A stretch of DNA of 64,000 nt, from contig NZ_QLLN01000005.1 in NCBI RefSeq assembly GCF_003259375.1, positions 124,001 to 188,000 on the forward strand, given 5' to 3'. Source of the DNA: Arenibacter echinorum (GTDB lineage: Bacteria > Bacteroidota > Bacteroidia > Flavobacteriales > Flavobacteriaceae). This document shows, one piece after another, positions 12,333 through 44,827 of the stretch (position 1 is the stretch's first letter; every line of letters starts with the position of its first letter). The translations under genes and the position numbers were made by a program. The notes beneath the pieces were generated by a model. The model saw nothing but the letters and a program-made list of their open reading frames with translations. It searched no databases and was not told where the DNA came from.

Positions 12333-12350
12333 AAAATTCAACCCTAAAAG

Positions 12351-12363
12351 TTAGGATTCCTAA
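12351..12363. promoter_or_regulatory. operator copy 2 of the CxxC/MarR module
   Basis: TTAGGATTCCTAA, a perfect dyad with 6-bp arms around a central T, 27 bases before the DUF2024 start. The first eleven bases match copy 1. Confidence 0.65.
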
Positions 12364-12390
12364 TATTTTATAATTTCAACAGTGAACGCC

Positions 12391-12654: not shown

Positions 12655-12677
12655 TTTAATTAGGATAACTAACTTTG
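12645..12677 (+). promoter_or_regulatory. promoter of the MarR gene with operator copy 3
   Basis: TTG (12645-12647), 22 bases, then a perfect -7 element TAACTTTG (12670-12677). Operator copy 3, TTAGGATAACTAA (12660-12672), overlaps the -7 element. The predicted start is near 12683, inside the hairpin that follows, about 26 bases before the ATG. Confidence 0.55.
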
Positions 12678-12706
12678 CCTGTCGGGCAATTCCCGGCAGG
12701 CTTTTT
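12677..12706 (+). terminator. terminator between DUF2024 and the MarR gene
   Basis: Stem GCCTGTCGGG (12677-12686) and CCCGGCAGGC (12692-12701), ten pairs with one G-T, 5-base loop, then TTTTT. It ends three bases before the MarR ATG. It can stop transcripts arriving from DUF2024. A transcript starting at the MarR promoter begins inside the stem and should escape. Confidence 0.75.
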
Positions 12707-12708
12707 AT

Positions 12709-13317
12709 ATGGACAAGAGTATTTTTAACCCGGACCATCAAGAAAAAGATGTTACCAGCAAAATTATAGCCGGACTTGAGCGCGTTTCCGAAGCCTTCAA
12801 GGTCCTGCTTTGGGATAAGGCCAAATTGTTGGGTTTAAGTCCCATCCAAATCCAAATCCTAATATTCATTGCTTACCATAAAAATGAAATTTGCAATGTT
12901 AGCCACTTGGCCAAAGAATTCAATATAACCAAGCCCACCATAAGCGATGCTATCAGGGTCTTGGACAAAAAAGGGCTGATCACCAAGGAATATTCTTCCA
13001 GCGATAGTAGAAGCTATTCCATTGGCCTCTCGGAAACTGGAACAGAGACCATAGGACAAATTTCAGATTTTGCCAACCCCTTAAAGATGCAGCTTAATAC
13101 CGTTGGGGATTCCGAATTGGAATCGCTTTTTGGTACTTTGAGCAAACTCATCTATCAACTGAACACAAGTGGGATCCTTAGTGTACAAAGAACCTGCTAT
13201 GGCTGTAAATTCTACAGCAAAGAAAGTAACCAGGATTATTGCAACTTGCTCAACAAAGAATTGCTGAATAAGGACATCCGTTTGGACTGTCCAGAATTTG
13301 AAGTAAAGCACACCTAA
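12709..13317 (+). CDS. MarR-family transcriptional regulator with C-terminal four-cysteine segment
   Basis: A 202-residue winged-helix regulator. Residues about 15-145 form the MarR domain: LGLSPIQIQILIFI, the recognition helix region FNITKPTISDAIRVLDKKGLI, and wing SSSDSRSYSIGLSETG. Unlike plain MarR proteins (about 145 residues) it has an extra 50 residues with Cys163-x2-Cys166-x11-Cys178-x15-Cys194. This is suited to binding a metal ion or Fe-S cluster, or to thiol sensing; that is inference. It is the likely reader of the three dyads in front of this module, including its own promoter. Confidence 0.85.
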   Translation: MDKSIFNPDHQEKDVTSKIIAGLERVSEAFKVLLWDKAKLLGLSPIQIQILIFIAYHKNEICNVSHLAKEFNITKPTISDAIRVLDKKGLITKEYSSSDSRSYSIGLSETGTETIGQISDFANPLKMQLNTVGDSELESLFGTLSKLIYQLNTSGILSVQRTCYGCKFYSKESNQDYCNLLNKELLNKDIRLDCPEFEVKHT

Positions 13318-13504
13318 TGAGTTCCTTAGGACAACACAACTGTCCATATGCGAGAACAGTCTTTCCATAAAAATACATGCACATTACATCTTTTACCCTC
13401 AATCTTGGGAGAGTTATTAAGTTTTTGGATATTTACCACTTCAATATTTGGAGAACACAGGCAAACCAAAACTAAGATCGCTTAGTGCATATAAAAAATA
13501 GAAC

Positions 13505-19670: not shown

Positions 19671-19704
19671 GTTCATGAAAACCTTTATAGGTTTTTCATG
19701 AACT
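19671..19704. terminator. hairpin between convergent genes
   Basis: GTTCATGAAAACC and GGTTTTTCATGAAC form a 13-bp stem with one bulged T and a short loop. It overlaps the last 20 bases of the minus-strand isomerase gene. T tracts are poor on both sides, so its terminator role is likely from position, not proven. Confidence 0.4.
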
Positions 19705-20521
19705 TCATATTGTGCGTCATACTCTCAAAAGGGGTACTGGCATACTCCTCTTGTTCTATAAATATATACTTAAGTCCGGATTCTTTTTTATATTTCAGCA
19801 TTTGGGCTATGTCCAAACCTCCTTTTCCAAACTCGGTGCTTTCCTTTTTCGCCATGTCCATATCCTTCAAATGCCATAATGGAAACCTTCCTTCATATTT
19901 TCTAAAATAATCCAAAGGATCCTTCCCGGCAACCACTACCCAACCCAGATCAAGTTCCATATGCACCAGGTCCGCTTGGGTATTTTTCAATAGGGTATCA
20001 TAAAACACCTCCCCGTTTTCGGATTCAAATTCATATTCGTGATTATGGTATCCGAATTTTATATTTCTAGCCTTACATTCTTCCCCCGCCTTATTAAAGG
20101 CCTCGGCTACGGCCTTATAGTTGTCCGCTGTTTGTCCTTCCGTAGGCATGGAGGAACAAATTAGATATTCCTGTCCGGCCTCGGCCGCCTGATCCATAGT
20201 CTCTTTCCAATGTTCGTCCAGGGCTACATGTCCGCTCCTGAGGGTCATCCCAAGATCTTCACAAACATCTTTCATTTCTTTCGGCTTCAGACCGTAATAT
20301 AGTCCCTTGGTACTTCTTGCCGATTCAATTTGTTTAATTCCCAAGGCCGCTATTCTCTTTAAAGTACCAACAGCATCTTCCAACATCTCCTTGCGAAAGG
20401 TATACAATTGAACCCCTAAATTCTTTTTTGGATTCTTATAGGGCAAAGTAAAGGATGGCAATAAAACCACTCCTGCTGCCAACATTCCTGACTGCATTAA
20501 AAATTCTTTTCTCGTTGTCAT
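19685..20521 (-). CDS. sugar phosphate isomerase/epimerase-like TIM barrel protein, exported
   Basis: A 278-residue xylose-isomerase-like TIM barrel. The N-terminus (MTTRKEFLMQSGMLAAGVVLLPSF) is an export signal, probably Tat-like in a weakened form (one Arg-Lys). The metal-binding barrel strands are GYHNHEYEFE, MELDLGWV, LWHLKDMD and YIFIEQEE. It belongs to the family of sugar epimerases, isomerases and 3-keto-glycoside lyase-like enzymes common near Gfo/Idh oxidoreductases. It is 15 bases downstream of the aldo/keto reductase gene in a minus-strand carbohydrate operon. The exact substrate is unknown. Confidence 0.87.
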   Translation of the reverse strand: MTTRKEFLMQSGMLAAGVVLLPSFTLPYKNPKKNLGVQLYTFRKEMLEDAVGTLKRIAALGIKQIESARSTKGLYYGLKPKEMKDVCEDLGMTLRSGHVALDEHWKETMDQAAEAGQEYLICSSMPTEGQTADNYKAVAEAFNKAGEECKARNIKFGYHNHEYEFESENGEVFYDTLLKNTQADLVHMELDLGWVVVAGKDPLDYFRKYEGRFPLWHLKDMDMAKKESTEFGKGGLDIAQMLKYKKESGLKYIFIEQEEYASTPFESMTHNMKFMKNL

Positions 20522-20536
20522 TTTCTATCCTTTAGA

Positions 20537-21508
20537 TTATTGTGACCATGAGGTTGGTTTTCTATCCCATCTATGGCCTTTTAATTCTTGATATAACTCC
20601 ATTGGCAAGCCTTTGCCATCACTTAAGGCCGTATTCATTAAAACGTTCCTTTCCTTGCGCATTCCAGGAATTATGGTACTTACCGTTTTGTTCATAGTAA
20701 TAAAGCGCAAAGCCATTTCCGCCATGGTCATACCTTCCGGAACCACTGGTCTCAATAGGTCTGCCCTTTCCGCACTGGCAATTAAATTCTCGGGCACAAA
20801 ATACGTCCCCCTCCAATCCCCTTCCGGAAACTTGGTCTCTTTGGTTATATTCCCGGTCAAGGTGCCTTCGTCAAAAGGCACCCTTGCAATGACAGCAATA
20901 TCCAACTCTTCACATAATGGAAAAAGGACATCCTCCGGAGCTTGGTCAAAAATATTGTAAATAACCTGTACCGCATCGAACGCTCCTGTCTTAAGGGCCT
21001 TAATACCATTTTCTGGCTCCCAACGGTTTACACTGATACCCATGGCCGCTACCTTCCCTGACTTTTTTAAATCTTCAACCGCCCTTTGCCACTCCTCACG
21101 ATCGGACCAACTGTCGTCCCAAGTATGGAACTGCATTAAATCCAATTGCTCCGAGCGTAAATTCTTCAGGGTCTTTTCCGTATAATCCACAATATGGGAC
21201 ATAGGATAGGATTCCTCTAAACTATATTCCGGTTTTGCCGGCCATTTAAAATTTTTAGCTGGGATCTTGCTGGCGGTAAATAGCTTTTTATTGGGAAACC
21301 TTCGCAATAGATCGCCCAGTAATTTTTCACTGTGCCCATGACCATAGGCCCAAGCGGTATCGAAAAAATTAACTCCATTTTCCACAGCCAGATCCAGTGA
21401 CTTGGCAGACAATAGGTCGTCGGACTCGGTCCATCCTCCCATGCCCCACATTCCGTATCCTATTTCACTAACATCCCACTGGGTTCTACCAAATTTTCTT
21501 ATAACCAT
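20537..21508 (-). CDS. aldo/keto reductase
   Basis: A 323-residue NADPH-dependent aldo/keto reductase. The catalytic tetrad is visible: Asp and Tyr in FFDTAWAYGHGHSE, Lys in FTASKIPAKNF and His in LMQFHTWDDSW. The cofactor region includes GISVNRWEPENG, and SAERADLLRP and IPGMRKERN lie near the C-terminus. It is cytoplasmic, unlike the exported isomerase downstream, 15 bases apart. The two probably act on related sugar-derived aldehydes or ketones. Confidence 0.92.
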   Translation of the reverse strand: MVIRKFGRTQWDVSEIGYGMWGMGGWTESDDLLSAKSLDLAVENGVNFFDTAWAYGHGHSEKLLGDLLRRFPNKKLFTASKIPAKNFKWPAKPEYSLEESYPMSHIVDYTEKTLKNLRSEQLDLMQFHTWDDSWSDREEWQRAVEDLKKSGKVAAMGISVNRWEPENGIKALKTGAFDAVQVIYNIFDQAPEDVLFPLCEELDIAVIARVPFDEGTLTGNITKETKFPEGDWRGTYFVPENLIASAERADLLRPVVPEGMTMAEMALRFITMNKTVSTIIPGMRKERNVLMNTALSDGKGLPMELYQELKGHRWDRKPTSWSQ

Positions 21509-21560
21509 AACTCTAACCTAATACTTTTCACTCTTAAAAATCCCGGACCCTATTTATTGA

Positions 21561-22421
21561 TCAATACTGATGGAAAGCATCGGAAACAAACTCCAATACC
21601 ACGGGCAGGGATTCCCGCCAATAGGTCCAGCTATGGCGACCTTCCCTTACCCTATATTCATGGGGCACCTCTTTCTTTTTCATGGCAATATGCACTAAAC
21701 TATTTCCTTCATAAAGAAAATCATCGTCCCCACAGTCTATGAACCATCTAACCGATTTCATATCTTCAAGGGATGAAGCCTGGATAAGGGATAGGGCATT
21801 GTGCTTTTCATAATAGGCACTTACAAGGCTATCTTCATAGCTCTCATTATTACCTTTTAGTCTTTGTTTAAAATCGTCCAAACTTAGGGCTCCTATATAG
21901 GCACTTAAAGGACAGGCCGATGAAAACAGCTCAGGGTGGCGTAAGGCATACATGAACGTTCCACCGCCACCCATGGAAAGTCCAGCTATGGCCCTGTAGC
22001 GCTTCTCTCCCTTAATGCGATACTTCTTCTCTACATAGGGCATTAATTCCTGAAAAAAGAAATCCTCATACCTCCAGTCCCCTTTTACGGAATTAAAATA
22101 ACCCCTAGTTCCCGTATTGGCATCTGGCATAACAATAATCATTGGAGTAGCCTTACCTTCTTTAATAGCATTATCCGTAATACGCAACACCTCACCAAAT
22201 TGCACCCAACCCGTTTGATCGTCACCAGCGCCATGAAGCAAATACAACACTGGGTAACTCCTATTGGAAGTTTCATAATCCGGCGGAAGGTATACCGCAA
22301 ATTTCCTTTCACTCTTTAGGATTTCACTCTTCATGCTGAGTGCGTCAAATACCTTTCCGGTCTGCGCATTAGCAGTTGCCAGACACACTAGCGCGCATAG
22401 TAACAATAGATTGATTCGCAT
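21561..22421 (-). CDS. secreted esterase, CE1/esterase-D-like alpha/beta hydrolase
   Basis: A 286-residue esterase with a signal peptide (LVCLATANAQ). It has the CE1 layout: PVLYLLHGAGDDQTGWV, then the nucleophile AGLSMGGGGTF. The acid lies in DCGDDDFLYEGN and the histidine in REGRHSWTYWRE. Family members are feruloyl and acetyl esterases, or esterase D. In the periplasm it could deacylate plant or algal polysaccharides, fitting the neighbouring sugar enzymes. It is 52 bases upstream of the aldo/keto reductase gene in the same direction. Confidence 0.88.
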   Translation of the reverse strand: MRINLLLLCALVCLATANAQTGKVFDALSMKSEILKSERKFAVYLPPDYETSNRSYPVLYLLHGAGDDQTGWVQFGEVLRITDNAIKEGKATPMIIVMPDANTGTRGYFNSVKGDWRYEDFFFQELMPYVEKKYRIKGEKRYRAIAGLSMGGGGTFMYALRHPELFSSACPLSAYIGALSLDDFKQRLKGNNESYEDSLVSAYYEKHNALSLIQASSLEDMKSVRWFIDCGDDDFLYEGNSLVHIAMKKKEVPHEYRVREGRHSWTYWRESLPVVLEFVSDAFHQY

Positions 22422-31408: not shown

Positions 31409-31921
31409 TTGAAAGCTATCAAAGAAGAACATGTATGCAAGGATGACGTTTACGCCACAATCTTCAGCACTTATTCCAAAACGGTCTTTAACTATATATA
31501 TTATAAGTTTGGCAACGAGGAAAAAGCGTATGACGTTGTACAGGAAGCATTTATAAAATTATGGGAAAATTGTTCCAAGGTTGCTCCGGATAAAGCAAAG
31601 TCATATGTATATACCATTGCCAACAATTTATACCTGAATGTTTTAAAGGCGGAAAAAGTAAGATTAAAATACGCGCCGGAGACCAATACTGTTGTAAATG
31701 AGTCACCGGACTTTTTATTGGAAGAACAGGAATATAAAGAAAAATTGGAACGGGCGTTGGCGGCTTTACCCGAAAACCAACGTACTACCTTTTTATTGAA
31801 TAGGATCGATGGAAAGAAATATGCAGAAATAGCGGAGATGGAAGGTGTAAGTGTAAAAGCCATTGAAAAAAGAATGCATCTGGCCCTAAAAACACTTAGG
31901 GAACAGATTGAAGGTATATAA
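31409..31921 (+). CDS. ECF-type RNA polymerase sigma factor
   Basis: A 170-residue sigma-70 family ECF factor, FecI-like. Region 2 has YDVVQEAFIKLWENC and region 4 has LPENQRTTFLLNRIDGKKYAEIAEMEGVSVKAIEKRMHLALKTLRE. No in-frame ATG exists, so translation must begin at the TTG at 31409 (or another non-ATG codon). FecR and a TonB receptor with an STN signalling domain follow. This makes a classic transport-sensing chain: receptor, then FecR, then sigma. Confidence 0.93.
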   Translation: MKAIKEEHVCKDDVYATIFSTYSKTVFNYIYYKFGNEEKAYDVVQEAFIKLWENCSKVAPDKAKSYVYTIANNLYLNVLKAEKVRLKYAPETNTVVNESPDFLLEEQEYKEKLERALAALPENQRTTFLLNRIDGKKYAEIAEMEGVSVKAIEKRMHLALKTLREQIEGI

Positions 31922-31929
31922 GACAAAGA

Positions 31930-32041
31930 ATTGAGTATATAGTAATGAGTAAATGAGCTATTGGATTGTTTTATGCTGTTTAAGGTTATAAAATTTTCAT
32001 TTTATTCTGCTTATTCGGCAGTCCCAATCCCAATACTCAAT
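31930..32041. repeat. inverted short-unit repeat between sigma and fecR
   Basis: ATTGAGTAT (31930-31938) and ATACTCAAT (32033-32041) are exact complements, both extended by imperfect TGAGTA or AATACT units. It is similar in style to the repeats at 3687-3873 and 27606-28034. Confidence 0.45.
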
Positions 32042-32081
32042 ACTAGGATCTCAGTACCAATATTAAATATTTAATTAAAAA

Positions 32082-32110
32082 GTAGGGTATTTTCTTTTTT
32101 GATTGTTATA
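32082..32110 (+). promoter_or_regulatory. ECF-type promoter of the fecR - TonB receptor operon
   Basis: GTAGGGTATTTT (32082-32093), nine bases, TTGTTATA (32103-32110), 20 bases before the fecR ATG. It is identical in its first 12 bases, in TTGTT and in spacing to the promoter of the divergent lipoprotein. Confidence 0.65.
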
Positions 32111-32130
32111 CCTATATAAAGCTAGAAACC

Positions 32131-33039
32131 ATGCAAGAAAATTATTTGGCAAAATGGCTCAATAACGAACTCACGAAAGAGGAGTTGGTTAAATTTAAGG
32201 AGACCAAAGAGTATGCCTCGTATTTAAAACTACGGGAAGCCACCAATAATTTGGCAGCGCCAGACTTTGACATGGCCAAGGCTTTTGAAGACCTCAACAA
32301 ACACAAGGCTTCCACTAAGAGCAAAGTAATTAAACTTAATCCCTATAAAAAATACATGGGCATCGCTGCTGCTATAGCCTTGATTTTTGTTGCCTCCTTT
32401 TTGTACTATGGCAATTTAAACGAAGAAATAAGTACGCAATATGCCGAAAGGGCCCAAATAGTGCTCCCGGATGCATCGGAGGTTCAACTAAATGCCGATT
32501 CCCAAATTTCGTACAGCAAAAAAAATTGGGCAAAAAAAAGAGATATAGCACTGAACGGAGAAGCTTTTTTTAAGGTTGCCAAGGGCAAGCGTTTTACCGT
32601 AACAACAGAAAATGGAACCGTAACCGTTCTGGGTACTCAATTTAATGTAGAAAATAGAAAAGGCTATTTCGAAGTAGCCTGTTACGAGGGTTTAGTAAGT
32701 GTCATCTACAACAAGGAGGAGGTTAAACTTCCCGCTGGTAATTCTTTGGTGGTTATAAATGGTGAATTACAGGCCTTGAAAATACCAAATACCAAGGAAC
32801 CATCCTGGATTAGGAATGAAAGTAGCTTTAAGAGTATTCCATTGAAATTTGTTTTGGATGAATTTCAAAGACAATTTAATATTGAGGTCGCTACCGAAAA
32901 TATAGATACCAATCAATTATTTACAGGATCCTTTAGCAATACCAACAAGGAATTAGCGTTGCAAAGTATAAGTACTCCTTCTCAGATCAAGTTTAAATTA
33001 GAGGGGAATAAAGTGCTATTCTATGCTGAAACACCATAA
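32131..33039 (+). CDS. FecR family anti-sigma regulator
   Basis: A 302-residue membrane regulator. The cytoplasmic N-terminus (residues 1-70) carries the sigma-binding part. A TM helix is at about 75-92 (MGIAAAIALIFVASFLYY). The periplasmic FecR domain has IVLPDASEVQLNADSQISYSK, GEAFFKVAKGKRFTVTTENGTVTVLGTQFNV and a C-terminal STN-like part (FQRQFNIEVATENI...FTGSFSN). It conveys the state of the TonB receptor to the sigma factor. Its last 17 bases overlap the receptor gene. Confidence 0.93.
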   Translation: MQENYLAKWLNNELTKEELVKFKETKEYASYLKLREATNNLAAPDFDMAKAFEDLNKHKASTKSKVIKLNPYKKYMGIAAAIALIFVASFLYYGNLNEEISTQYAERAQIVLPDASEVQLNADSQISYSKKNWAKKRDIALNGEAFFKVAKGKRFTVTTENGTVTVLGTQFNVENRKGYFEVACYEGLVSVIYNKEEVKLPAGNSLVVINGELQALKIPNTKEPSWIRNESSFKSIPLKFVLDEFQRQFNIEVATENIDTNQLFTGSFSNTNKELALQSISTPSQIKFKLEGNKVLFYAETP

Positions 33040-35587
33040 ATACATTGTATTTCTTATTGCCCTATATGTATTTCTACTAGTTCCTTATTCCAATTGGGCA
33101 CAAGAAAATGGTGCTCAAAAAGTAAATTTAATTAGCTATTTGGAAGAACTGGAACGGGAGCATAACATTAAGTTCTCATATGTGGATGAGGACTTGGGGC
33201 AGTTACAGTTTTCTATTCCGGATACCGATTCACTACCCCAAATACTGGAAGAGCTCCACAAACAGACCCTATTGGACATTACTAAACTCAATGACCGCTA
33301 TTTTGCCATATCCAAAAGCAAGTATGTGGATATCTGCGCCAATGTGGTAGACAACTTTGAGAACAGTACCATCATGAATGCAACTGTGGAGGTTTTGGGC
33401 AGCAATATATCCCAGATTACCGATTTGGAAGGACAGTTCTCCTTAAAGGAAGTGCCAAGAAATGCCAATATCGCGATCAAACACCTGGGCTTTAAGACCA
33501 AATATTTTAGCGCGGAAGAACTAACTGGCAACAATCCCTGCAAGACTATTTTATTATCTCCAAATTACCAGGAACTGGAAGAAGTTGTTGTATATCAATT
33601 TCTTACCACTGGTATTACCAAAGAACCAGATGCCAGCATTGAGCTCAATACGGACAAATTCGGGATTTTGCCCGGACTTATAGAACCCGATGTTCTACAG
33701 ACCATACAGGCATTGCCTGGAATTAAGAGTGTAGATGAGACCGTGTCCGATATTAATGTCAGGGGTGGCACCAACGATCAAAATTTAGTCTTATGGGATG
33801 GTATAAAAATGTATCATTCCGGACATTTTTTTGGTTTGATTTCCGCCTTTAATCCCTATTTAATCGAAAATGTGAACATTATAAAAAATGGGACCAGCGT
33901 ACAATATGGCGATGGAGTGAGCAGTGTAATAAATATAAATACCAGAAACAAGATCAGCGATTCATTTGCGGGAGGGGCAGGATTTAATTTATTAAGTGGC
34001 GATGTTTTTGGACAGCTACCTCTCTCGGAGAAAGTTTCCGTTCAGTTTTCAGGAAGGCGATCCACCACGGATTTTATAAATACCCCAACTTACAATCGGT
34101 ATTTTGATAAAGTGTTTCAGGACAGTGAGGTAAAGGAAAATGGTAACTCCTCCAATCCCGAAAACACAGTTAGGGACGAAAATTTTTATTTTTATGACTT
34201 TACGGGCAAACTGCTTTACGACATCAATAAAAACCAAAAGGCCCGATTAAGTTTTATCAATACCAACAACCACCTTAAATACACTGAAAAAACAGAGGAT
34301 GGCACTGCCAACAGTTTATTGGACCAGACCAATCTTTCCTTCGGCGGGAGCTTGGAAAGTAAATGGACCCGCAAATGGAGCACCCATTTAAACCTGTATT
34401 ACACCCGTTATAATTTGGATTCCCAAAACATCCCATCCCAATCCCAACAGCTTTTTCAAAGCAACCAGGTACTGGAAAAGGCAATAAAGCTGAACACCAA
34501 TTACAATTTGGGACAGCACCTTAATTGGTTGAATGGATATCAACTTAATGAGGTAGGCATTACCAACTTTACACAAGTTACCCAACCCGCCTATAAAAGC
34601 AATATAAAAGGGGTAATAATGACCCATTCCCTATTTTCCGAATTGGATTACAGCTCGAAAAATGAAAAATTCAATGCCAGAGGCGGACTTAGACTGAATT
34701 ACATCAAAAACTTAAAGACCTTTAAAACTTTTGATGAGGTTATTCTAGAACCTAGATTAAACTTAAATTATACTTTGACAGACGGACTTAAGACCGAATT
34801 ACTGGGAGAATTTAAAAGTCAGACCACCAATCAAATCATCGATCTGGAACAAAATTTTCTGGGGATTGAGAAAAGGCGATGGATACTTTCGGACAACGAT
34901 TTATTGCCCATTACAAAAAGTAAACAAATTTCCCTTGGGCTAAACTATGATAAAAATACGCTTTATGTAGGTGTGGAAGGGTTCTATAAAAAAGTGGACG
35001 GTATAAGTACAGCTACACAGGGATTCCAAAACCAAGATCAATTTAGCGGCGAAATAGGTAAGTACGATGTATCGGGAATAGAATTCTTGATCAACAAAAA
35101 AACAGCAACCTATAGCACATGGTTCAGTTATGCTTATAACACCAATAATTACACTTTTGAGAATATAACACCCAACCAATTCCCCAACAATTTGGACATT
35201 AGGCACACTATAACCTTTGCAGGCACCTATACTTATAAGAGTTTTAGAATGGGACTTGGCGCCAATTATCATACGGGAAGACCATACACCAAGCCACAGG
35301 AGGGCAACAATTCTATAATCCTGAATGTTTTCCCCAACCAAATCAATTACGAGGAACCCAACAGCAGTAGACTCCCGGCATACTTAAGGGCAGATGCCTC
35401 GTTTATCTATAACTTCAAGATTGGCCAAGGTATAAAATCCTCGTTAGGGGCTTCCGTTTTGAACCTATTGAACAAAAAAAATATCCTGAACATATATTAC
35501 AGGATAAATGAACAGAACGAAATTGAAACCATAGAAAGGGTTTCCCTAGGCATTACCCCCAACTTTAGTTTCCGAATGAGCTTCTAG
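33023..35587 (+). CDS. TonB-dependent receptor with STN and carboxypeptidase-like domains
   Basis: An 854-residue outer-membrane receptor. The signal peptide ends near residue 26 (NWAQ). An STN signalling domain follows (about 35-95, ISYLEELEREHNIKFSYVD, then LLDITKLNDRYFAISK). Next is a carboxypeptidase-D-like regulatory domain (105-185, ATVEVLGSNISQITDLEGQFSLKEV). Then comes the plug (ALPGIKSVDETVSDINVRGGTNDQNLVLWDGI) and a beta-barrel ending in the C-terminal Phe of SFRMSF. There is no SusD partner next to it. It is the second gene of the fecR operon, 17-base overlap. Likely ligands are iron complexes, peptides or glycans, but none can be inferred. Confidence 0.92.
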   Translation: MLKHHKYIVFLIALYVFLLVPYSNWAQENGAQKVNLISYLEELEREHNIKFSYVDEDLGQLQFSIPDTDSLPQILEELHKQTLLDITKLNDRYFAISKSKYVDICANVVDNFENSTIMNATVEVLGSNISQITDLEGQFSLKEVPRNANIAIKHLGFKTKYFSAEELTGNNPCKTILLSPNYQELEEVVVYQFLTTGITKEPDASIELNTDKFGILPGLIEPDVLQTIQALPGIKSVDETVSDINVRGGTNDQNLVLWDGIKMYHSGHFFGLISAFNPYLIENVNIIKNGTSVQYGDGVSSVININTRNKISDSFAGGAGFNLLSGDVFGQLPLSEKVSVQFSGRRSTTDFINTPTYNRYFDKVFQDSEVKENGNSSNPENTVRDENFYFYDFTGKLLYDINKNQKARLSFINTNNHLKYTEKTEDGTANSLLDQTNLSFGGSLESKWTRKWSTHLNLYYTRYNLDSQNIPSQSQQLFQSNQVLEKAIKLNTNYNLGQHLNWLNGYQLNEVGITNFTQVTQPAYKSNIKGVIMTHSLFSELDYSSKNEKFNARGGLRLNYIKNLKTFKTFDEVILEPRLNLNYTLTDGLKTELLGEFKSQTTNQIIDLEQNFLGIEKRRWILSDNDLLPITKSKQISLGLNYDKNTLYVGVEGFYKKVDGISTATQGFQNQDQFSGEIGKYDVSGIEFLINKKTATYSTWFSYAYNTNNYTFENITPNQFPNNLDIRHTITFAGTYTYKSFRMGLGANYHTGRPYTKPQEGNNSIILNVFPNQINYEEPNSSRLPAYLRADASFIYNFKIGQGIKSSLGASVLNLLNKKNILNIYYRINEQNEIETIERVSLGITPNFSFRMSF

Positions 35588-35727: not shown

Positions 35728-38700
35728 TTAGTTGCTCAAATCCTTAATCCTAATATTCCTAAAGGCCAGTTCGGCACCATGTCCCAAGAAACCAATATGA
35801 CCTGTATTCCTTTCCAATCCTGGGTGTTCCTTATGGTCCGCCGTCCCGTTCTTGGATGCTTCTTTCCAATCTCCATCCACAATGACGGTGCCATTCAAGG
35901 TAATTTTAACGTGATTCCCCTTAACGATTACCTCTTGTGAATTCCACTCCCCTACCGGGTTCAGAGCCCCTCTTTTGGCAGCAATAATTCCGTATACGGA
36001 CCCATGGTACTGGTAAGGTTGTAAATTGGCATAAATCTCGGCCGTATCGTCCAAAATCTGCAATTCCTTACCCTCATAGGCAGCATCCCCTTCCAATGGT
36101 GCATGGATACCCAAACCATTATTGGCGCCAGGTGTCAATTTAAAATCGAACCTAAAAATGAAATCCGAATATTCCTCAGCTGTAAACAAGTTGCCATGTC
36201 CACCTCTTTTAGGTCGTACCAAAAGCTCATTATTTTCCATGATATAGTCGGTCTTATTTCCTACCCAATGGTCAAGATCCTTTCCATTCAACAAGGATTT
36301 AAAACCCTCCTTTTTTTCTTCTTCCGTCAACTGGTCATCACCAGAACCAATTTCCCTCACATAAATATTCCTAAAGCCCAAATCTTCCCCATGGGCCTGC
36401 AGCTCAATAGCCTCTTTGGCAAAAATAGCCTGTTTGCGATCCCAATAGTTCTCCAGGACCACATTGTCTGTAACCAAAACTCCATTTAAGTGTACGGTAA
36501 CACGTTCACCCACCATTTTTATTCTAAAGGTATTCCATTCATCAATAGGGTTATCCGCCACTTGTAACGGCTTGCTCTCATGCTTCTGATTGTTGTACAA
36601 TCCGCCTGAACCCACTTGGGCACCAGCATCTACCCGGGCAATGTCCCAAATTTGAACCTGAGGTGTGCCCCTCAAATAAATACCACTGTCACCACCATTG
36701 GTAATCTTCCAATCCACTAACATTTCAAAATCGCCATAATCCTTAACGGTACAGATATTATTATAACCTTCTCCTTTAAAACCGATAACACCGTTTTCAA
36801 TATACCAATCCTTCATCATTTGCTCATTGGCTTTGGCCTGTTCGGCCGCCAATTTTCTTGCGGACATTTTGGAACGTGCAATTGGGTTTTGCACCAATCC
36901 TTCCCATCCTGTGAAGTCCTTGCCATTAAAGATCGATTCAAAGCCTTTATCTGTGGGCATTTTATCTAAAAACTCCTTTACATCAATTTTAATATACTGA
37001 CTATCCGGCCCTGTAAGATTATCGATACTTCTAGAGACTATATCCCTGACCAATTCACCACTTAGACCATCCTGCTTACCTGGAGTTGGCAAGGCAATGG
37101 CAATTGCTACATTTGAAGCTGTTGTCAAAAGGTCCTTGTCATTTAAATATTCGGAAACAAAAATTAAGGAAAGAAAGGTTTTTACATTCCTTGTTGCAGA
37201 AAGCACCTGCTTCTTTTCAGCTAGGGTTTTGGCCTCCGGCATTAATTTCCTGACTAGTAACAACTTCTGATCATCTGGATAATCCGATCCTCTTACCTTG
37301 GAAAGATAGTTATCAAAAGCATTTTTTCTTATGGCATCATCAGAGCTAGTTGTTGCCGTTTTAAAAAGAGATGGCAAAGCATCATTGTTTTTCCAACTGG
37401 ACAAGGCATCCAAGGCAATCATTTTCTCTTTATCATTACCTGTAGAAAGTATTTGGGATACCAATTCCAACGCTTCTTGGTTACTTAATGAAGCTAACAC
37501 CGGCAATAATTTTGACTTATCCGCAGCCTCCTTATATTCCTTTAACACCGCGTCCGCAAATGTGCCATTACTTTCGTCAAGAATGTTTAAAATGGCCAGC
37601 TGTGCATTTTTCATGTTGTCCGACTTATCGGTCTTGTTCAATAGATTTATTAATGTTGAAAAATCCTTGTCCAATGAAATAGACGGCAAAGCCTTGTAGA
37701 CCACAGCAGTAACATTTTCACTTCCTGAACCAATATAGCCCACTAGGGTATCAAATTGATCCGTAGCATTCCTGGCCGCCAAGACATTTACCAACACTTC
37801 CTTGCCCGCCTCATTTACATTGGGGAGCTGGCCAGCTAATAACCCACTATCCTTGGCATCGCACAATCTCAACAAGGTTTCCTCAATGGCACTATATTCC
37901 TCAGGGGTAGTAGCCAATTTTAAATTGTTGAACAATACCGGCAAGGCCTTGTTCTTATCTTGATAAGACAAAGATTTTATTCCGGCTTCACGCACAGAAA
38001 CATCCTTGTCTTCCACCGCGTTCAAAATAACCTTATCAAAAACAACCGTTTCATCGCTTTTGCCAAGCATTCGAATTATAAGTGGCTTAATTTCAGAAGA
38101 TGACTTCTTATACTGTTTTGCCCAAAGCGCAACCTCAGTGGACGAAAGGTCGGAACCGGCTGCATCCAATACGGCTCCAACATAATTCTTATTGCTGTTC
38201 TTGGATTCCTTTAACAAAGTCTTGGTAAAGGCAGTGCCTTCATTGGCACTCAATATATGTATTCCTGCAGAGCGATAATGCAATTGGTCGTCCATCCTGC
38301 AATTCTTAAGCAAAGCGTTGGCCACAGTGTTACTCAAGCCTTTATTGCCTTTCTTTTGCAGTTTATTGCCATAGTGGATAAAGGCTATAATACTTTTAGT
38401 ATCATCCATTTGATAATTGGAGCTCTCAACTGCCTTTTCCAATACCTCATAAGAAGTTGGACTCCCTATTTCGGCCAACGCCATCAAGGCTCTTTGTTGA
38501 ACGATTTTTGAGGATGAATTTACCCTAGCTTTCAAAACTTCTTCTGCAGGAATAAATTGTAAGGCTCCCAAAGCCTCTATAAAAGCAGCTTGTTTATTTA
38601 CGTCCCCTACCTCTGTAGCCTCTAGAATAGCCAATGAAGCATCAGTTGTACCTATGGCCGTTAAAGCGGCCAATGCAGGCTTAAACAGGTCGTTATTGGA

Positions 38701-39129
38701 AAGATACTTGCTTAATGCCGGAACGCTTACATCTGTTCCAACATAAATTAGTCGATCCATTAAAAAGGTCTTTACCTCATTGTTGGAGGCCGACCCCAGT
38801 GCATTTAACAGGGCATTTTCAACTACACCGTTCTGTATTTTGGATTCTTCCCCTCCACTATAGATAGCCACACTCTGTATGGCATACCTTGCCTTGGTAT
38901 CATCCCCAGTTCCTAGAGGAACTAGCTTATCAGTAATTTTTAGGATCCCATCCTCACCCAAGTCGATTATTTCCTGCATTAAGCGATCTGAATGACCCAG
39001 GTCTTCCGTTGGCAATTGCATCAAAATATCGGCTACCTTGGTGTCCAAGGTTCTATTGTCCTGTGCGCTAATGGCAAGTGTGCCCACAAATAGCATTAGC
39101 ACACCTATGTTTTTATATAATGTATTCAT
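35728..39129 (-). CDS. secreted HEAT-repeat protein with two C-terminal DUF1080 (3-keto-disaccharide hydrolase) domains
   Basis: A 1133-residue protein with a signal peptide (FVGTLAISAQ). Residues about 40-690 are HEAT-type helical repeats, with repeating A-x-x-A-L-x-x-I-G and ALxxLxx units. Two DUF1080 domains follow. The first starts near 725 (FESIFNGKDFTGWEG, then GDSGIYLRGTPQVQIWD). The second starts near 920 (FKSLLNGKDLDHWVGN, then NNGLGIHAPLEGDAAYEGKELQILDD, ending FRNIRIKDL). Members of DUF1080 act on 3-keto-glycosides after oxidation by Gfo/Idh enzymes. The upstream gene (20 bases away) is such an oxidoreductase, so the pair probably forms one pathway. Fusion to a long HEAT scaffold is unusual and suggests a large complex. 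Confidence 0.88.
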   Translation of the reverse strand: MNTLYKNIGVLMLFVGTLAISAQDNRTLDTKVADILMQLPTEDLGHSDRLMQEIIDLGEDGILKITDKLVPLGTGDDTKARYAIQSVAIYSGGEESKIQNGVVENALLNALGSASNNEVKTFLMDRLIYVGTDVSVPALSKYLSNNDLFKPALAALTAIGTTDASLAILEATEVGDVNKQAAFIEALGALQFIPAEEVLKARVNSSSKIVQQRALMALAEIGSPTSYEVLEKAVESSNYQMDDTKSIIAFIHYGNKLQKKGNKGLSNTVANALLKNCRMDDQLHYRSAGIHILSANEGTAFTKTLLKESKNSNKNYVGAVLDAAGSDLSSTEVALWAKQYKKSSSEIKPLIIRMLGKSDETVVFDKVILNAVEDKDVSVREAGIKSLSYQDKNKALPVLFNNLKLATTPEEYSAIEETLLRLCDAKDSGLLAGQLPNVNEAGKEVLVNVLAARNATDQFDTLVGYIGSGSENVTAVVYKALPSISLDKDFSTLINLLNKTDKSDNMKNAQLAILNILDESNGTFADAVLKEYKEAADKSKLLPVLASLSNQEALELVSQILSTGNDKEKMIALDALSSWKNNDALPSLFKTATTSSDDAIRKNAFDNYLSKVRGSDYPDDQKLLLVRKLMPEAKTLAEKKQVLSATRNVKTFLSLIFVSEYLNDKDLLTTASNVAIAIALPTPGKQDGLSGELVRDIVSRSIDNLTGPDSQYIKIDVKEFLDKMPTDKGFESIFNGKDFTGWEGLVQNPIARSKMSARKLAAEQAKANEQMMKDWYIENGVIGFKGEGYNNICTVKDYGDFEMLVDWKITNGGDSGIYLRGTPQVQIWDIARVDAGAQVGSGGLYNNQKHESKPLQVADNPIDEWNTFRIKMVGERVTVHLNGVLVTDNVVLENYWDRKQAIFAKEAIELQAHGEDLGFRNIYVREIGSGDDQLTEEEKKEGFKSLLNGKDLDHWVGNKTDYIMENNELLVRPKRGGHGNLFTAEEYSDFIFRFDFKLTPGANNGLGIHAPLEGDAAYEGKELQILDDTAEIYANLQPYQYHGSVYGIIAAKRGALNPVGEWNSQEVIVKGNHVKITLNGTVIVDGDWKEASKNGTADHKEHPGLERNTGHIGFLGHGAELAFRNIRIKDLSN

Positions 39130-39149
39130 TTTATAATTCTAGTATTTGG

Positions 39150-40418
39150 TTAATAAGCCCAAGAGGACCTCATTGGTTGATCTATTAATCTATTGGCTTC
39201 CTCATCATTGATAAACTCCTGTTTTACCGGATCAAACTCCAATGTACGCCCCAATCTCAAAGCGATAATGCCCATGTTCACAACGGTGGCGGAACGGTGA
39301 CCGTTCTCCTCGTTAAGGGCAAATTTCTGTCTGGTTTTTACCGATTCCGAGAATACGGTAATCTGCTCCTCGGGATCTGGTATACTATTGATTAAGCCCT
39401 CTATATTGGGGATGGTAGATTTAAATCCGTTATATATTTTCCCATTAGGCCCTTCAATATAAGCAGCATCCTTATCCCTGTTTTCGCCATCCAAGATAAT
39501 TTGACAACCATCTGCATAGGTATAGGTAATTCTTCTCCAGGTACCTATGGCATCATAGTGTTGCTCTGGTGCATCCACCTCAACCTTAACTGGACTGGTG
39601 TTATCCTTTCCTAAAAAGTATTGTACAGGATCAATATAGTGCTGGCCCATATCACCCAATCCACCGCCATCGTAATCCCAATATCCCCTAAAGGTACCGT
39701 GAACCCTATGTGGATGATAAGGCTTTTCCGGGGCTGGCCCTAGCCACATATTATAATCCAACTCTCCTGGTACAGGTTGTGGCGCAAGATTTTCCTTGCC
39801 CACCCAGTAAAATTTCCAGTTAAATCCAGTAACCCCACTAATGGTGACCTTTAACGGCCATCCCAGAGCACCACTATCCACTACCTTTTTCAACTTCTTT
39901 ACCGGAGTACCCATCCCGTAAAAATTATCCTTAAAACGGAACCATGTATTTAAGCGGAACATTTTCCCGTGCTGCTGCATAGCCTCCACTACTTTTTTAC
40001 CTTCACCTATTGTCCTTGTCATTGGCTTTTCGCACCAAACATCCTTACCTGCTTCCGCAGCCATAATAGACATAAGACCATGCCAATGTGGTGGAGTGGC
40101 TATATGCACAATATCCACATCAGGTCTCTGCAAAACTTCCCTAAAGTCACGGTATCCCTTTACACCACTTCCCACTTTTTGAAGGGTGCTGGACAGATGA
40201 TTGGCATCAGCGTCACAAATAGCTAAAAGTCTAGTTCCTTCATAATCCAAATGTCCTTGGCCCATGCCCCCAACACCAATTACGGCCTTGGTCAATTGAT
40301 CACTTGGCGGAATAAAATTCGTCCCTCCCATGACATGTCTTGGAATTATACTGATTCCTGCAGCTGCCACTAGTGACTTTCTAACAAAATCCCTACGGCT
40401 GGTTGATTTTTTCTCCAT
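39150..40418 (-). CDS. Gfo/Idh/MocA family oxidoreductase, Tat-exported
   Basis: A 422-residue oxidoreductase with a twin-arginine signal (STSRRDFVRKSL then AAAGISIIP). The NAD-binding VIGVGGMGQGHL, CEKPMTRTIGEGKKVV, WLGPAPEKPYHPHRVHGTFRGYWDYDGGGLGDMGQHYIDP and FINDEEAN are typical. It likely oxidises a sugar C3-hydroxyl. The DUF1080 protein follows by 20 bases, and a membrane-bound regulator precedes it. The leader of about 145 bases holds two TTACCCC repeats. Confidence 0.92.
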   Translation of the reverse strand: MEKKSTSRRDFVRKSLVAAAGISIIPRHVMGGTNFIPPSDQLTKAVIGVGGMGQGHLDYEGTRLLAICDADANHLSSTLQKVGSGVKGYRDFREVLQRPDVDIVHIATPPHWHGLMSIMAAEAGKDVWCEKPMTRTIGEGKKVVEAMQQHGKMFRLNTWFRFKDNFYGMGTPVKKLKKVVDSGALGWPLKVTISGVTGFNWKFYWVGKENLAPQPVPGELDYNMWLGPAPEKPYHPHRVHGTFRGYWDYDGGGLGDMGQHYIDPVQYFLGKDNTSPVKVEVDAPEQHYDAIGTWRRITYTYADGCQIILDGENRDKDAAYIEGPNGKIYNGFKSTIPNIEGLINSIPDPEEQITVFSESVKTRQKFALNEENGHRSATVVNMGIIALRLGRTLEFDPVKQEFINDEEANRLIDQPMRSSWAY

Positions 40419-40464
40419 CTATACTTATTCTATTAATTAATTGAAGTTTCAATATTTAAACCCA

Positions 40465-40511
40465 CAAAGTAAAACTGTAATGCGTAAAAAAAGGGGTAAT
40501 ATTTGGGGTAA
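40465..40511 (-). promoter_or_regulatory. direct heptamer repeat and promoter region of the oxidoreductase operon
   Basis: On the minus strand TTACCCC occurs twice (40511-40505 and 40499-40493), 12 bases apart, overlapping where a -33 element should be. TACTTTG (40471-40465), a -7 element lacking one base, lies 21 bases later. Direct repeats at a helical step are the binding style of OmpR and SARP regulators. Confidence 0.5.
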
Positions 40512-40562
40512 CAATATTGAAAAAAAGTGTTTTGCATAAATTTTTTCAAATATTGATGGCTA

Positions 40563-42884
40563 CTATAGGGGATTACTTACCGCCATATCCTCAAATTTAA
40601 CGGTATACATCTCACCATAAATTTTTTCATAAAGCTTGGCAAAATTGTCGTAGGCCGTATGCGCCAAACTTAATTTTCCCTGCCTTATAAGAATTTGCAA
40701 TTTGATCTGTAGCGCATGTTCATTTAAATCATCGTAGATATTCATGACGGATGCCAAGTCGTACATTAAAACGCTATGCTTATCCATGTCCAGTATTTTT
40801 GAAATATCATAACAGAATTCTATAATCCTATTGCTCATATTTTCAACAATGGGATCCAACCATGAATCGCTCATATTCACAAAAAACCGATCTGCCTTTA
40901 AAATAGAGAACAGTTGGGGCAATTGTTCTTCCAAATAAGCGACCGTTACACCACTTCTGCCCAAATCATTCAAATAATTTAAAACCTCCTGATAATCACA
41001 AAAACAATTATTTCCGATTTCCAGAAACCAACTTTTGTCCAGAAAAATCAAATTCATTTCCTTGGCTTCGGACAAAATAGCCCTAAGGTTCTGTATATTG
41101 GTCCCTCTCGTATTCTTTGCATTCTTTGGGCTCATCCCAGGCCAAAGTGCCTCGGTAAGTTTTTTGGTGCTAATCCCATCCTTATCACCAATGCTGTGCA
41201 ACAAGACAATAACAAATAGCTGTTTTAACTTGGGGGACAATTTTTTGGCAATATCAAAACCTTCAGAATTTATGATTCGCAGAGACCCAAAACAAAGTAT
41301 TTTTTCAGCTGCATTGATTAAACTCTTTTGGTCCCTGCTGGGATACTTCTTTACCGGTCTTTCTGGTGCCGGCGACAACTTTGCCCTGATTGTTCCTTTC
41401 TTCCAAAACTTAAACGCCAAGAAAATAAGCAAAAATGCAGCAATGGCTATTCCTATTTTTATATAAAGGGATGATACGTCCGCATCGTTCACTTCTATTT
41501 TTTGGTATTCCTTGGCAATTTCATTAGCATTAAGTTCACGTTTCCATATTTTAATATTTGTCAAGTATCCGATAAAAAATTCTTGCCACAAATTACTTCC
41601 TATTACAATATTATAGTCGGAGGTATCATAGTTCTCAATGAGTTTAATCTTATCCGTCTGTACCCCATTCACAAAAAATAACAGTTCGTTGTTCACCTTG
41701 GAATGTACTAAAGCCACATGGGTCCATTCATTTAATGGCACTGGGGACGTCTGTGATATGTAGTCCTTAATATCGGCCATGGTAAAGGTCAGTAATCCTT
41801 CGTGCAACTTTAGGACAAAATTATCCCCTTTTCCCAGTATACTGTTGTTACTGGTTAGGACGGTAGGCCTAACCCATGACGAGATGGTAAAACTTCCCTC
41901 CAAGGCCGTTCTACTATCCAATCCGGCATCTACATAAGCCCCCTTATCAAAATGGCCCACCTTTCCATGCACCTCATCTTGTTGAATCTTTACGCTATTA
42001 ACGATAAGCTCCTTATCGTTTTTTCTAATAGCATTTTTAATGGTAGGGCCAAAAGTAAAATGATCTGTTAGACCGTATTCAAAATCTAAGGGAAAGCCAA
42101 TAAACTCTTTAAGATTACCTCTATTTTCCGGGGTTGTATAGATAATATCGGGAGAGAAATAATAACCGGCCTTGTGCGGAATAAATACCGGTAAGCTTTC
42201 CATTGGATCTATTGGAAGACTAAAATGTCCGTTTACAATAAGGTTCCGATGGTTTTTGAAGCTTACCCCGTTCAACAATCCAGATTTGGACCTTACTGTT
42301 CCAAATACCCTGCTCTCCATATTTAGGTCGAAGACAAGGCTATCTGCTTTAGGGAACAACTCGGGATCAATTTGAATGAAATTGGGCATTTTCCCAGAAC
42401 GCCTCCAAATATCTACAAAAACACTATCATTAAGAAATTCCTTATCCAACACACGAACTACGCCGAATTCCCTGACAGTATCAAATTCGAGGGCATCCTC
42501 ACCATTGGGCAAGGCATCCAATGTAATAGCCTCTATCTTTTGCATAGATATCTGTGGAACCCAGGATTGGGACAAAAGATCTTTGCTAAAAATGTTTTCG
42601 GTCACCAGGATGAGCGAATCATTTTTTACCATTAATTGCTCCAAAATAGTATCGTAATTTTCCTGATAGTCTAAAATATAGAGGGCTATTGAAGTTCTAC
42701 CATTAAGAAGAACAGGTAAATTACTACTTGTTATTTGATCAATATCTATTAAAACATGGGACTGTAGACGTATATCCCATTTATCCTCTTCAGAAAGAAG
42801 TCGAAATTCCTGTGCGGTTCCTACTTTCAACAATAGAAGCAAAAACAACAAACAAAATTTAGAAAATGGAATTCTTCTTAGCAA
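40563..42884 (-). CDS. membrane-anchored regulator: periplasmic LamG domain, one TM helix, cytoplasmic SARP-like DNA-binding domain
   Basis: A 773-residue protein with a signal peptide (residues 1-24, VGTAQ). The periplasmic part runs to about 470. Residues 310-455 are a LamG/concanavalin-like jelly roll (GAYVDAGLDSRTALEGSFTISSWVRP, NEWTHVALVHS, LTNIKIWKRELNANEI). A TM helix is at 472-493. The cytoplasmic end has a winged helix (about 530-630) with SARP marks: FGSLRIIN, LSPKLKQLFVIVLLHS, LTEALWPGMSPKNAKN, GTNIQNLRAIL. A bacterial transcriptional activation-like helical region follows (about 640-760). This is an inside-out one-component activator that could sense glycans. It starts at TTG; no in-frame ATG is nearby. 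It precedes a sugar-oxidation operon. Confidence 0.8.
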   Translation of the reverse strand: MLRRIPFSKFCLLFLLLLLKVGTAQEFRLLSEEDKWDIRLQSHVLIDIDQITSSNLPVLLNGRTSIALYILDYQENYDTILEQLMVKNDSLILVTENIFSKDLLSQSWVPQISMQKIEAITLDALPNGEDALEFDTVREFGVVRVLDKEFLNDSVFVDIWRRSGKMPNFIQIDPELFPKADSLVFDLNMESRVFGTVRSKSGLLNGVSFKNHRNLIVNGHFSLPIDPMESLPVFIPHKAGYYFSPDIIYTTPENRGNLKEFIGFPLDFEYGLTDHFTFGPTIKNAIRKNDKELIVNSVKIQQDEVHGKVGHFDKGAYVDAGLDSRTALEGSFTISSWVRPTVLTSNNSILGKGDNFVLKLHEGLLTFTMADIKDYISQTSPVPLNEWTHVALVHSKVNNELLFFVNGVQTDKIKLIENYDTSDYNIVIGSNLWQEFFIGYLTNIKIWKRELNANEIAKEYQKIEVNDADVSSLYIKIGIAIAAFLLIFLAFKFWKKGTIRAKLSPAPERPVKKYPSRDQKSLINAAEKILCFGSLRIINSEGFDIAKKLSPKLKQLFVIVLLHSIGDKDGISTKKLTEALWPGMSPKNAKNTRGTNIQNLRAILSEAKEMNLIFLDKSWFLEIGNNCFCDYQEVLNYLNDLGRSGVTVAYLEEQLPQLFSILKADRFFVNMSDSWLDPIVENMSNRIIEFCYDISKILDMDKHSVLMYDLASVMNIYDDLNEHALQIKLQILIRQGKLSLAHTAYDNFAKLYEKIYGEMYTVKFEDMAVSNPL

Positions 42885-43042
42885 TATATACTTAATAATC
42901 CCGCATAGGGCATTTCTATTAACTACGCAATTTACTAAGAATAAATAAAATTTCGCAGGCGGATATTACCTGAAGTATATCTGTACCAAACAATTGAATT
43001 TAACGCCTGGAAATGCTATCCCTGAGAAAGGCTAAGATTTGC

Positions 43043-44827
43043 CTACATCCTATCTGGCACCTGTATCCCCAAAAGTTCAAAGGCCGACTTTATAACCTCG
43101 CTAACCTTTTTTGCCAATTGCACCCTGAATATTTTTTTGTTCTGATCCTGCTCCCCTAATATGGAAACATTTTGATAAAAGGAATTGAATTCCTTAACCA
43201 AATCATACGTGTAATTGGCAATTAATGCCGGACTATAGTTTTCGGCCGCCAATTGGATAGTTTCTGGAAACAACTGCAATTGTTTTAGCAACTCTTTCTC
43301 CTTCTCATGTAAATCCGTCAACTTTTGAGAACTGTTCAGGTTCTGCTCCAATTCTTCCGCCTTTCTCAAAATAGATTGGATCCTGGCATAAGTATACTGA
43401 ATAAAAGGCCCGGTATTTCCTTGAAAATCTACGGACTCCTCCGGATTGAACAGGATTCTCTTTTTTGGATCCACCTTAAGGATGTAATACTTTAGGGCTC
43501 CCAGTCCTATAATCTTATACAGCTCTTGTTTCTCTTCTTGAGAGTAATCTTCCAGCTTGCCCAATTCCTCGGAAATATCAGCAGCAGTTTGGGTCATATC
43601 ATCCATTAATTCATCGGCATCCACTACGGTACCTTCCCTACTCTTCATTTTCCCACTGGGCAGGTCCACCATTCCATAACTTAAGTGATACAGTCTTTCT
43701 GCCCAGGCAAAGCCCAACTTTTGCAATATGAGGAACAATACCTTAAAGTGATAATCCTGTTCATTGCCAACTGTATAGACCATGCCTTTAACATCAGGAT
43801 TATCTTTTACCCTTTGTATGGCCGTGCCAATATCTTGGGTCATATACACTGCAGTACCATCTGAACGGAGAACAATTTTCTCATCCAGACCATCGTCCGT
43901 TAGGTCTATCCACACACTACCATCTTCCTTTTTATAAAAGACCCCCCTTTGCAATCCGTCCTCTACAAAATCCTTTCCCAACAAATAGGTATTGCTTTCG
44001 TAATAGAGTTGATCAAAGTCGACCCCCATGTTTTTGTAGGTTATCTCAAAACCATCATAAACCCATTGGTTCATGGTCTTCCAAAGACCTACCACCTCTT
44101 CATCGCCGGCCTCCCATTTTCTAAGCATTTCCTGAGCTTCCAATAGGATTGGCGCCTCTTTTTCTGCTACTTTTTCATCTATCCCATTAGAAACCAAAGT
44201 AGCAATTTCGGCCTTATATGCCTTATCAAAAGCTACGTAATAATTCCCCACTAATTTATCACCCTTAAGCCCTGTACTCTCTGGTGTTTCCCCATTACCA
44301 AAACGTTGCCAAGCAAGCATGCTTTTACAAATGTGTATCCCCCTGTCGTTAATAATCTGGGTCTTATAGACCTTCTTCCCGGAAGCCTTTAGTATTTCTG
44401 CTACTGAATAGCCCAACAAATTGTTTCGGACATGGCCCAAATGCAGAGGTTTATTGGTATTAGGTGACGAATATTCCACCATTATGGCATCCTTAGAACT
44501 TTGGGAAACAAAACCAAAATCTTGCAGATTCCTTATTCCTTCAAAAAAATCGAGGTAATATTCATTGCTAATGGTAATATTCAAAAATCCTTTGACCACA
44601 TTGAAATCGGTCACATCATCTACTTCCTCTTTTAGGAACTGCCCTATTTGCCCACCTATTTGTACCGGATTTCCCTTTACATATCGCAACATAGGAAAGA
44701 TAACCGCAGTAATATCGCCCGCAAAATCTTTTCGTGTAGGTTGAAATTCTACCGTTGGCAATTCAACTTTAAAAATAGAGGTAACGGCTTCTTTTACCTT
44801 TTGCGCGAGGACTTCTTGAATGTTCAT
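43043..44827 (-). CDS. argS: arginyl-tRNA synthetase
   Basis: A 594-residue class I aminoacyl-tRNA synthetase that charges tRNA(Arg). The N-terminal ArgS-specific domain is followed by the HIGH-type motif NKPLHLGHVRNN and the KMSKS-type region LPSGKMKSREGTVVDADEL. The C-terminal DALR anticodon domain ends in QVPDRM. The length is normal. A -7 element TAATTTTG lies 21 bases upstream of the ATG. Confidence 0.97.
   Translation of the reverse strand: MNIQEVLAQKVKEAVTSIFKVELPTVEFQPTRKDFAGDITAVIFPMLRYVKGNPVQIGGQIGQFLKEEVDDVTDFNVVKGFLNITISNEYYLDFFEGIRNLQDFGFVSQSSKDAIMVEYSSPNTNKPLHLGHVRNNLLGYSVAEILKASGKKVYKTQIINDRGIHICKSMLAWQRFGNGETPESTGLKGDKLVGNYYVAFDKAYKAEIATLVSNGIDEKVAEKEAPILLEAQEMLRKWEAGDEEVVGLWKTMNQWVYDGFEITYKNMGVDFDQLYYESNTYLLGKDFVEDGLQRGVFYKKEDGSVWIDLTDDGLDEKIVLRSDGTAVYMTQDIGTAIQRVKDNPDVKGMVYTVGNEQDYHFKVLFLILQKLGFAWAERLYHLSYGMVDLPSGKMKSREGTVVDADELMDDMTQTAADISEELGKLEDYSQEEKQELYKIIGLGALKYYILKVDPKKRILFNPEESVDFQGNTGPFIQYTYARIQSILRKAEELEQNLNSSQKLTDLHEKEKELLKQLQLFPETIQLAAENYSPALIANYTYDLVKEFNSFYQNVSILGEQDQNKKIFRVQLAKKVSEVIKSAFELLGIQVPDRM

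Follow-up and report, generated by a model that had tools for sequence, protein, structure and literature searches.

REG locus and domain architecture

The window (the whole 64,000-nucleotide stretch of Arenibacter echinorum DNA analyzed here) carries on its minus strand, in reading order, a gene for a putative membrane regulator (REG), a gene for a Gfo/Idh/MocA oxidoreductase (GFO), and a gene for a HEAT-repeat protein, with a tandem heptamer repeat between REG and GFO (Table 1). The 773-residue open reading frame proposed for REG in the initial annotation was confirmed, and a search of its own genome returned a single REG match.

Table 1. Features of the REG-GFO region, in window positions
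Feature	Position	Strand	Basis
REG (LamG-TM-SARP regulator gene, putative)	40563..42884	-	ORF, 773 aa, TTG start as called
Signal peptide-like stretch, REG residues 1-24	42813..42884	-	Sequence reading and hydropathy
Extracytoplasmic REG residues 25-300 (fold unassigned)	41985..42812	-	Alignment; conserved block at ~200-300; structure model weak from position 225
LamG domain, REG residues 315-457	41514..41942	-	Pfam Laminin_G_3, E = 1.3e-21
TM helix, REG residues 471-492	41409..41474	-	Structure model and hydropathy
Winged helix (predicted), REG residues 527-629	40998..41306	-	Structure models; Foldseek AfsR/EmbR
BTAD-like helical domain (predicted), REG residues 630-768	40581..40997	-	Structure models; BTAD in some family members
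Putative operator repeat R1, TTACCCC	40505..40511	-	Comparison of REG-GFO intergenic regions
Putative operator repeat R2, TTACCCC	40493..40499	-	Comparison of REG-GFO intergenic regions
Putative operator repeat R3, TTACGCA	40481..40487	-	Comparison of loci
TACTTTG, resembling the flavobacterial -7 box TAnnTTTG	40465..40471	-	TTT[GA] offset conserved
GFO (Gfo/Idh/MocA oxidoreductase), presumed first target	39150..40418	-	GFO_IDH_MocA_C2, E = 2.4e-147
HEAT-repeat protein with two 3-keto-disaccharide hydrolase (3keto-disac_hyd, DUF1080) stretches, presumed second target	35728..39129	-	Pfam

A signal peptide, a LamG domain, and one TM helix had been predicted to occur in one chain, and this anatomy is borne out by sequence reading, Pfam, and hydropathy. 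The sole TM peak of REG (residues 473-491) reaches a hydropathy of 2.51, and the net charges of its flanks, -2 over the 15 residues ahead and +4 over the 15 behind, indicate that the N terminus is outside and the C terminus inside. Behind the helix comes a linker of ∼30 residues with positive charge and low pLDDT. Histidine kinase and receiver domains gave no Pfam or NCBIfam match in REG at an E value of ≤1, and no sigma or anti-sigma domain was found with either library. The full-length model is poor across most of residues 196 to 474, including the LamG part, and no ligand site was therefore read from it.

The initial annotation also proposed a winged helix and activation-type helices at the C terminus, to be checked by domain search and structure prediction, and for the window protein itself only the second was positive. 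The model of residues 527 to 773 alone (a 247-residue part, built from 14 sequences) has a mean pLDDT of 83.8 and a pTM of 0.77. Its three Foldseek matches in the PDB at an E value of ≤0.001 are all SARPs, i.e., AfsR (8hvr_I; E = 3.7e-4, TM 0.60/0.59, with a high rmsd of 7.2 over 255 columns), EmbR (2fez; E = 7.8e-4), and AfsR (8k60_I; E = 9.1e-4), and ranks 4 to 6 are again EmbR and AfsR. At the same threshold the full-length model matched eight PDB chains, six of AfsR/EmbR and two of jelly-roll domains. Pfam gave no winged-helix (HTH) or BTAD hit in the window protein, although 4 of the 12 family members tested had a BTAD match at an E value of ≤1 (best, 1.1e-4). Among the relatives, BTAD scored 19.3 bits in L067, against a cut-off of 22.1, and 14.7 bits in L081. 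When the C-terminal family profile was searched against PDB sequences, no SARP was found (best E value, 0.31); the fold emerged by structure only. On the strength of the models, the C-terminal part is rightly regarded as a SARP-like domain.

Family distribution and pairing with the GFO cassette

REG matches were present in all 17 of the other Arenibacter genomes searched (split over two contigs in G012), and the named relatives comprise 12 Arenibacter loci and one from Maribacter. In a set of 199 Flavobacteriaceae genomes, each from a different genus, the C-terminal profile retrieved 20 loci in 16 genomes. According to Pfam, the sensor is of the LamG type in 15 of these loci (the window, L064 to L067, L071, L072, and L074 to L081) and of the Kelch type in 4 (L068, L069, L070, and L073); L055 (G210), which ends at a contig edge, was left without a sensor type. 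Of the 20 extended regions L064 to L083, 16 were listed by a simple hydropathy rule (L070, L071, L077, and L079 were left out), and 15 of these 16 show a peak ahead of the C-terminal part, the exception being L081, whose listed peaks fall inside it. A broader profile, run on 395 genomes of the phylum, had matches in 28; on reading, several strong matches resemble long membrane proteins of the Kelch kind, and the weak ones resemble other BTAD/TPR regulators.

All 13 named relatives retain the gene order REG-GFO-HEAT. Among the 199 genomes, GFO occurs at an E value of ≤1e-100 in seven, and REG sits immediately upstream of it in six of them; G169, the remaining one, is without a REG match and carries SusC/SusD genes in that position. 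More generally, a Gfo/Idh gene lies directly downstream on the same strand in 12 of the 15 LamG-type loci of this set. The cassette of GFO_C2 and HEAT/3-keto hydrolase genes adjoins REG in the window, L064, L066, L067, L071, and L077. In L072 and L079, the genes after REG are one Gfo/Idh gene and a pair of 3-keto-disaccharide hydrolases (assigned by Pfam in L072 and by tblastn and reading in L079), and in L074, L075, L076, and L078 the next gene is of the GH109 type. L065 has a Gfo/Idh gene just upstream of REG and a 3-keto hydrolase 1.3 kb downstream, L080 has an adjoining TonB-receptor gene and, by reading, a SusD-like gene, and L081 has, again by reading, sulfatase-like genes. Several Kelch-type loci, which share the SARP-like output, adjoin SusC/SusD-like genes on reading.

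We rejected the possibility that REG is a mere part of conserved Arenibacter synteny: outside the genus the GFO cassette persists with REG (L041, L064, L066, L067, L071, and L077), while argS, gltA, and the TonB genes were not found in the stretches fetched. The initial annotation had taken placement upstream of a sugar-oxidation operon as support for a regulatory role. That placement holds, and the pairing outside the genus, together with a conserved SARP-style repeat before the operon and a further, unlinked copy of it in G160, makes the link firmer than placement alone.

By sequence, GFO is related to the BT_2158 family, although its score against BT_2158_fam (NCBIfam NF058561), 155.7 bits against a cut-off of 750, falls short of membership. 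Its N terminus is Tat-like (TAT_signal_seq, 14.1 bits, below the cut-off of 16.7). A periplasmic site for both the GFO enzyme and the REG sensor is likely but has not been demonstrated.

Two further arrangements were observed around the cassette. Convergent with the target operon, positions 31409 to 35587 of the window encode an ECF-like sigma factor, a FecR-like protein, and a TonB-dependent receptor; the FecR-like and TonB genes are retained in the 12 Arenibacter loci and were not found in L041 or the stretches from other genera. In G169 (L091, positions 6330 to 13500), the same cassette, with a GFO 93% identical, follows SusC/SusD genes instead of REG, hinting that its substrate is imported there by the SusCD pair.

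Heptamer repeat between REG and GFO

The three repeats have the layout TTACCCC-N5-TTACCCC-N5-TTACGCA, with a period of 12 bp. TTACCC(C/T)-N5-TTACCCC is conserved in all 19 REG-GFO intergenic regions examined (the window, L031 to L043, L064, L066, L067, L071, and L077), most of which have a weaker third repeat 12 bp further on, and the heptamer repeat is present in 18 of 18 Arenibacter genomes. To assess the period, 13 divergent REG-Gfo/Idh loci were drawn from 10 genomes. The 12 remaining Arenibacter loci, being almost identical, were excluded, and any pair containing less than 5 G/C in 14 was passed over. A perfect (7/7) repeat occurred at period 12 in 12 of the 13 loci and at no other period from 8 to 30, except for one locus at period 13. 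At ≥6/7 identity, period 12 was found in 13/13 loci, period 13 in 4/13, and each remaining period in 0 to 2. Dinucleotide shuffles gave a mean of 0.03 and a maximum of 1/13 in 400 trials. The distance to the -7 box is fixed as well: among 28 elements, 26 have TTT[GA] 43 to 44 bases away from where R1 begins (exceptions, L075 and L080).

The letters of the repeat vary among loci. The GH109-linked REG group has TTCACCC or TTCCCCC at the 12-bp period, and the second repeat of L065 is GTACCCC. No clear heptamer repeat was seen in L081, and the Kelch-type loci L068, L069, L070, L073, L082, and L083 have no triple repeat with a 10- to 13-bp period within 2 kb. Before positions 4762 to 7881 of L080, where a TonB-receptor gene accompanies a LamG-type regulator, ATACCCC-N5-ATACCCT-N5-CTACCCG was read, with the same 12-bp period. 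No Rfam family reached its threshold at positions 39000 to 43100 of the window.

Within its own genome, the exact pattern occurs once, at REG-GFO, and a reversed control also occurs once; the full triple with ≤3 mismatches also occurs once, and its control does not occur. Across the 199 genomes the exact pattern was hit 21 times, with 18 genomes represented. Eight of the hits fall in the gap separating REG from a Gfo/Idh gene, and these 8 are every TTACCCC-kind REG locus except L065. Hits of the reversed control outnumber those of the pattern, so that the count is uninformative and it is the position of the hits that tells. Ten of the 13 exact hits away from REG fall within ORFs of at least 260 aa, L096, L097, and L102 lying outside such ORFs, and on reading none of the 13 has a third repeat of the operator kind beside it. 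When ≤2 mismatches were allowed in G160 (∼4.5 Mb), where the regulator is not beside the GFO_C2/HEAT cassette, two places with one mismatch each were found (control, also two). Both precede 3-keto-disaccharide hydrolase genes; the second, on a different contig, is then also followed by a Gfo/Idh gene. Nine other genomes scanned likewise gave, beyond the expected places, 11 additional ones (one overlapping the element itself) versus 12 for the control.

R1 to R3 are probably the REG operator, for which there are no binding or expression data, and the comparison of loci strongly supports the GFO promoter as the putative cognate promoter of REG.

Proposed mechanism and relation to known regulators

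We consider it probable, with good confidence, that REG is a one-component activator of the SARP type, anchored in the membrane, for genes of oxidative glycoside cleavage; binding, activation, ligand, and transmembrane signaling are all inferred. In the periplasm, the LamG region would detect either a saccharide or an intermediate of the keto-sugar kind. Because contacts with proteins are a frequent role of LamG domains, a sugar ligand for REG is a guess and glycan binding by its LamG region an inference. The compartment sensed would be that reported, in the part of the source available, for BT2158 (PMC11300592) and probably also that of the target dehydrogenase GFO. The cytoplasmic SARP domain would bind the three tandem heptamers upstream of the target genes, Gfo/Idh and 3-keto-disaccharide hydrolase, and from there would recruit RNA polymerase in a manner much like that of AfsR. 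The flavobacterial -7 box lies at positions -12 to -5 (PMC9723704, available in part). If it sets the start site, which is itself inferred, the first bases of R1, R2, and R3 would be at about -51, -39, and -27. By analogy, the placement of R2 and R3 would be close to that of the afs box repeats, which span -40 to -30 and -29 to -19 and from which AfsR activates, according to the accessible portion of PMC10936776.

It remains possible, though we give it limited weight, that a ligand or envelope signal instead triggers intramembrane cleavage and that the freed SARP domain binds R1 to R3, a version of the proposed mechanism that departs from it only at the end. The single TM helix and the charged, low-pLDDT linker would permit such release, but activators of the ToxR/CadC kind, which are tethered, are presumed to act without it, and nothing in the present data separates release from tethered action. 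ToxR/CadC-type regulators have a sensor outside, a winged helix inside, one TM helix, and no kinase, an arrangement that REG resembles. Unlike them, REG has the reverse domain order and an extra BTAD-like domain, and it does not conform to their pattern of an N-terminal cytoplasmic winged helix and a C-terminal periplasmic sensor.

Repression by REG, with the SARP domain on R2/R3 blocking RNA polymerase until a ligand lifts it, is unlikely. A protein sitting on R2 and R3, presumed to occupy -39 to -21, could indeed obstruct the polymerase, but the predicted fold is one found in BTAD-containing activators, and the repeats would be placed like the afs box, the site from which AfsR activates (PMC10936776). 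Equally doubtful is that a different regulator binds the repeats and that REG is a neighbor with another target. Binding data are lacking and neighboring genes may be kept for other reasons, but the repeat is absent before the 93%-identical GFO of G169, a genome without a REG match (in L091 only places with three mismatches were found, 2 versus 2.39 expected), it is present before a different Gfo/Idh gene beside REG (L072 and L079), and its letters differ with the GH109-linked REG group. That REG is an ordinary envelope LamG protein without a regulatory role, as might be supposed from LamG being its only above-cut-off Pfam domain, is very improbable given a conserved cytoplasmic part with a predicted SARP fold and a putative operator linked to REG.

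The reading of REG as a tethered activator invites comparison with the SARPs, which are known chiefly from Actinobacteria, where they activate antibiotic genes (PMC10936776). REG is like AfsR, EmbR, and PimR in that an OmpR-type winged helix is directly followed by an all-helical BTAD-like domain (on prediction only) and in that tandem heptamer direct repeats lie at or near the promoter, as a triple in PimR, before GFO with a 12-bp period in R1 to R3. The published operator has, as far as the accessible part of PMC5930380 goes, three heptamers with 4-bp spacers and hence a unit of 11 bp, compared with 12 bp here. REG differs further in lacking both a Pfam BTAD match at cut-off and the N-terminal position of the SARP domain, which in REG (527-773) comes last in the chain, after the extracytoplasmic LamG region and the TM helix, and in occurring in Bacteroidota with Gfo/Idh and 3-keto hydrolase genes in place of antibiotic genes.

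In Bacteroidota glycan loci, saccharides are sensed by hybrid two-component systems and ECF sigma/anti-sigma pairs, which then turn on neighboring catabolic genes. REG presumably shares this task, but no kinase, receiver, sigma, or anti-sigma domain was found in it. For the target genes, the closest known pathway is that of BT2158 in Bacteroides thetaiotaomicron, a dehydrogenase to which GFO is related: the accessible part of PMC11300592 describes BT2158 as a periplasmic glycoside 3-dehydrogenase needed for disaccharides, a mutant failing on trehalose, leucrose, and palatinose. GFO is far under the 750-bit family cut-off, and no regulator of the REG kind is mentioned in that part of the paper. 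SARPs and one-component regulators are already known; for the combination in REG, no description was found in searches of an open-licence paper library, and the initial annotation likewise knew of no described system with its exact domain order.

We further postulate, with somewhat less assurance than for REG itself but as more likely than not, a Bacteroidota class of membrane-tethered SARPs that have exchangeable lectin-like sensors (LamG and Kelch) and one SARP output. The LamG branch would be dedicated to redox glycoside cleavage (3-keto-sugar hydrolases and GH109) and would have an operator code of heptamers at a 12-bp period with letters tracking the regulator subtype. A membrane-tethered SARP with an outer sensor would be a further saccharide-sensing route for glycan degraders of the Bacteroidota. 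Through the operator, members of the regulon could be recognized from sequence, as is suggested by the unlinked operon of G160, and the operator offers a direct handle on the control of oxidative (3-keto) glycoside cleavage. Elsewhere in the window, positions 19685 to 22421 encode, by reading, proteins of the TIM-barrel sugar isomerase type, the aldo/keto-reductase-like type, and the esterase-like type in a row, possibly another keto-sugar set.
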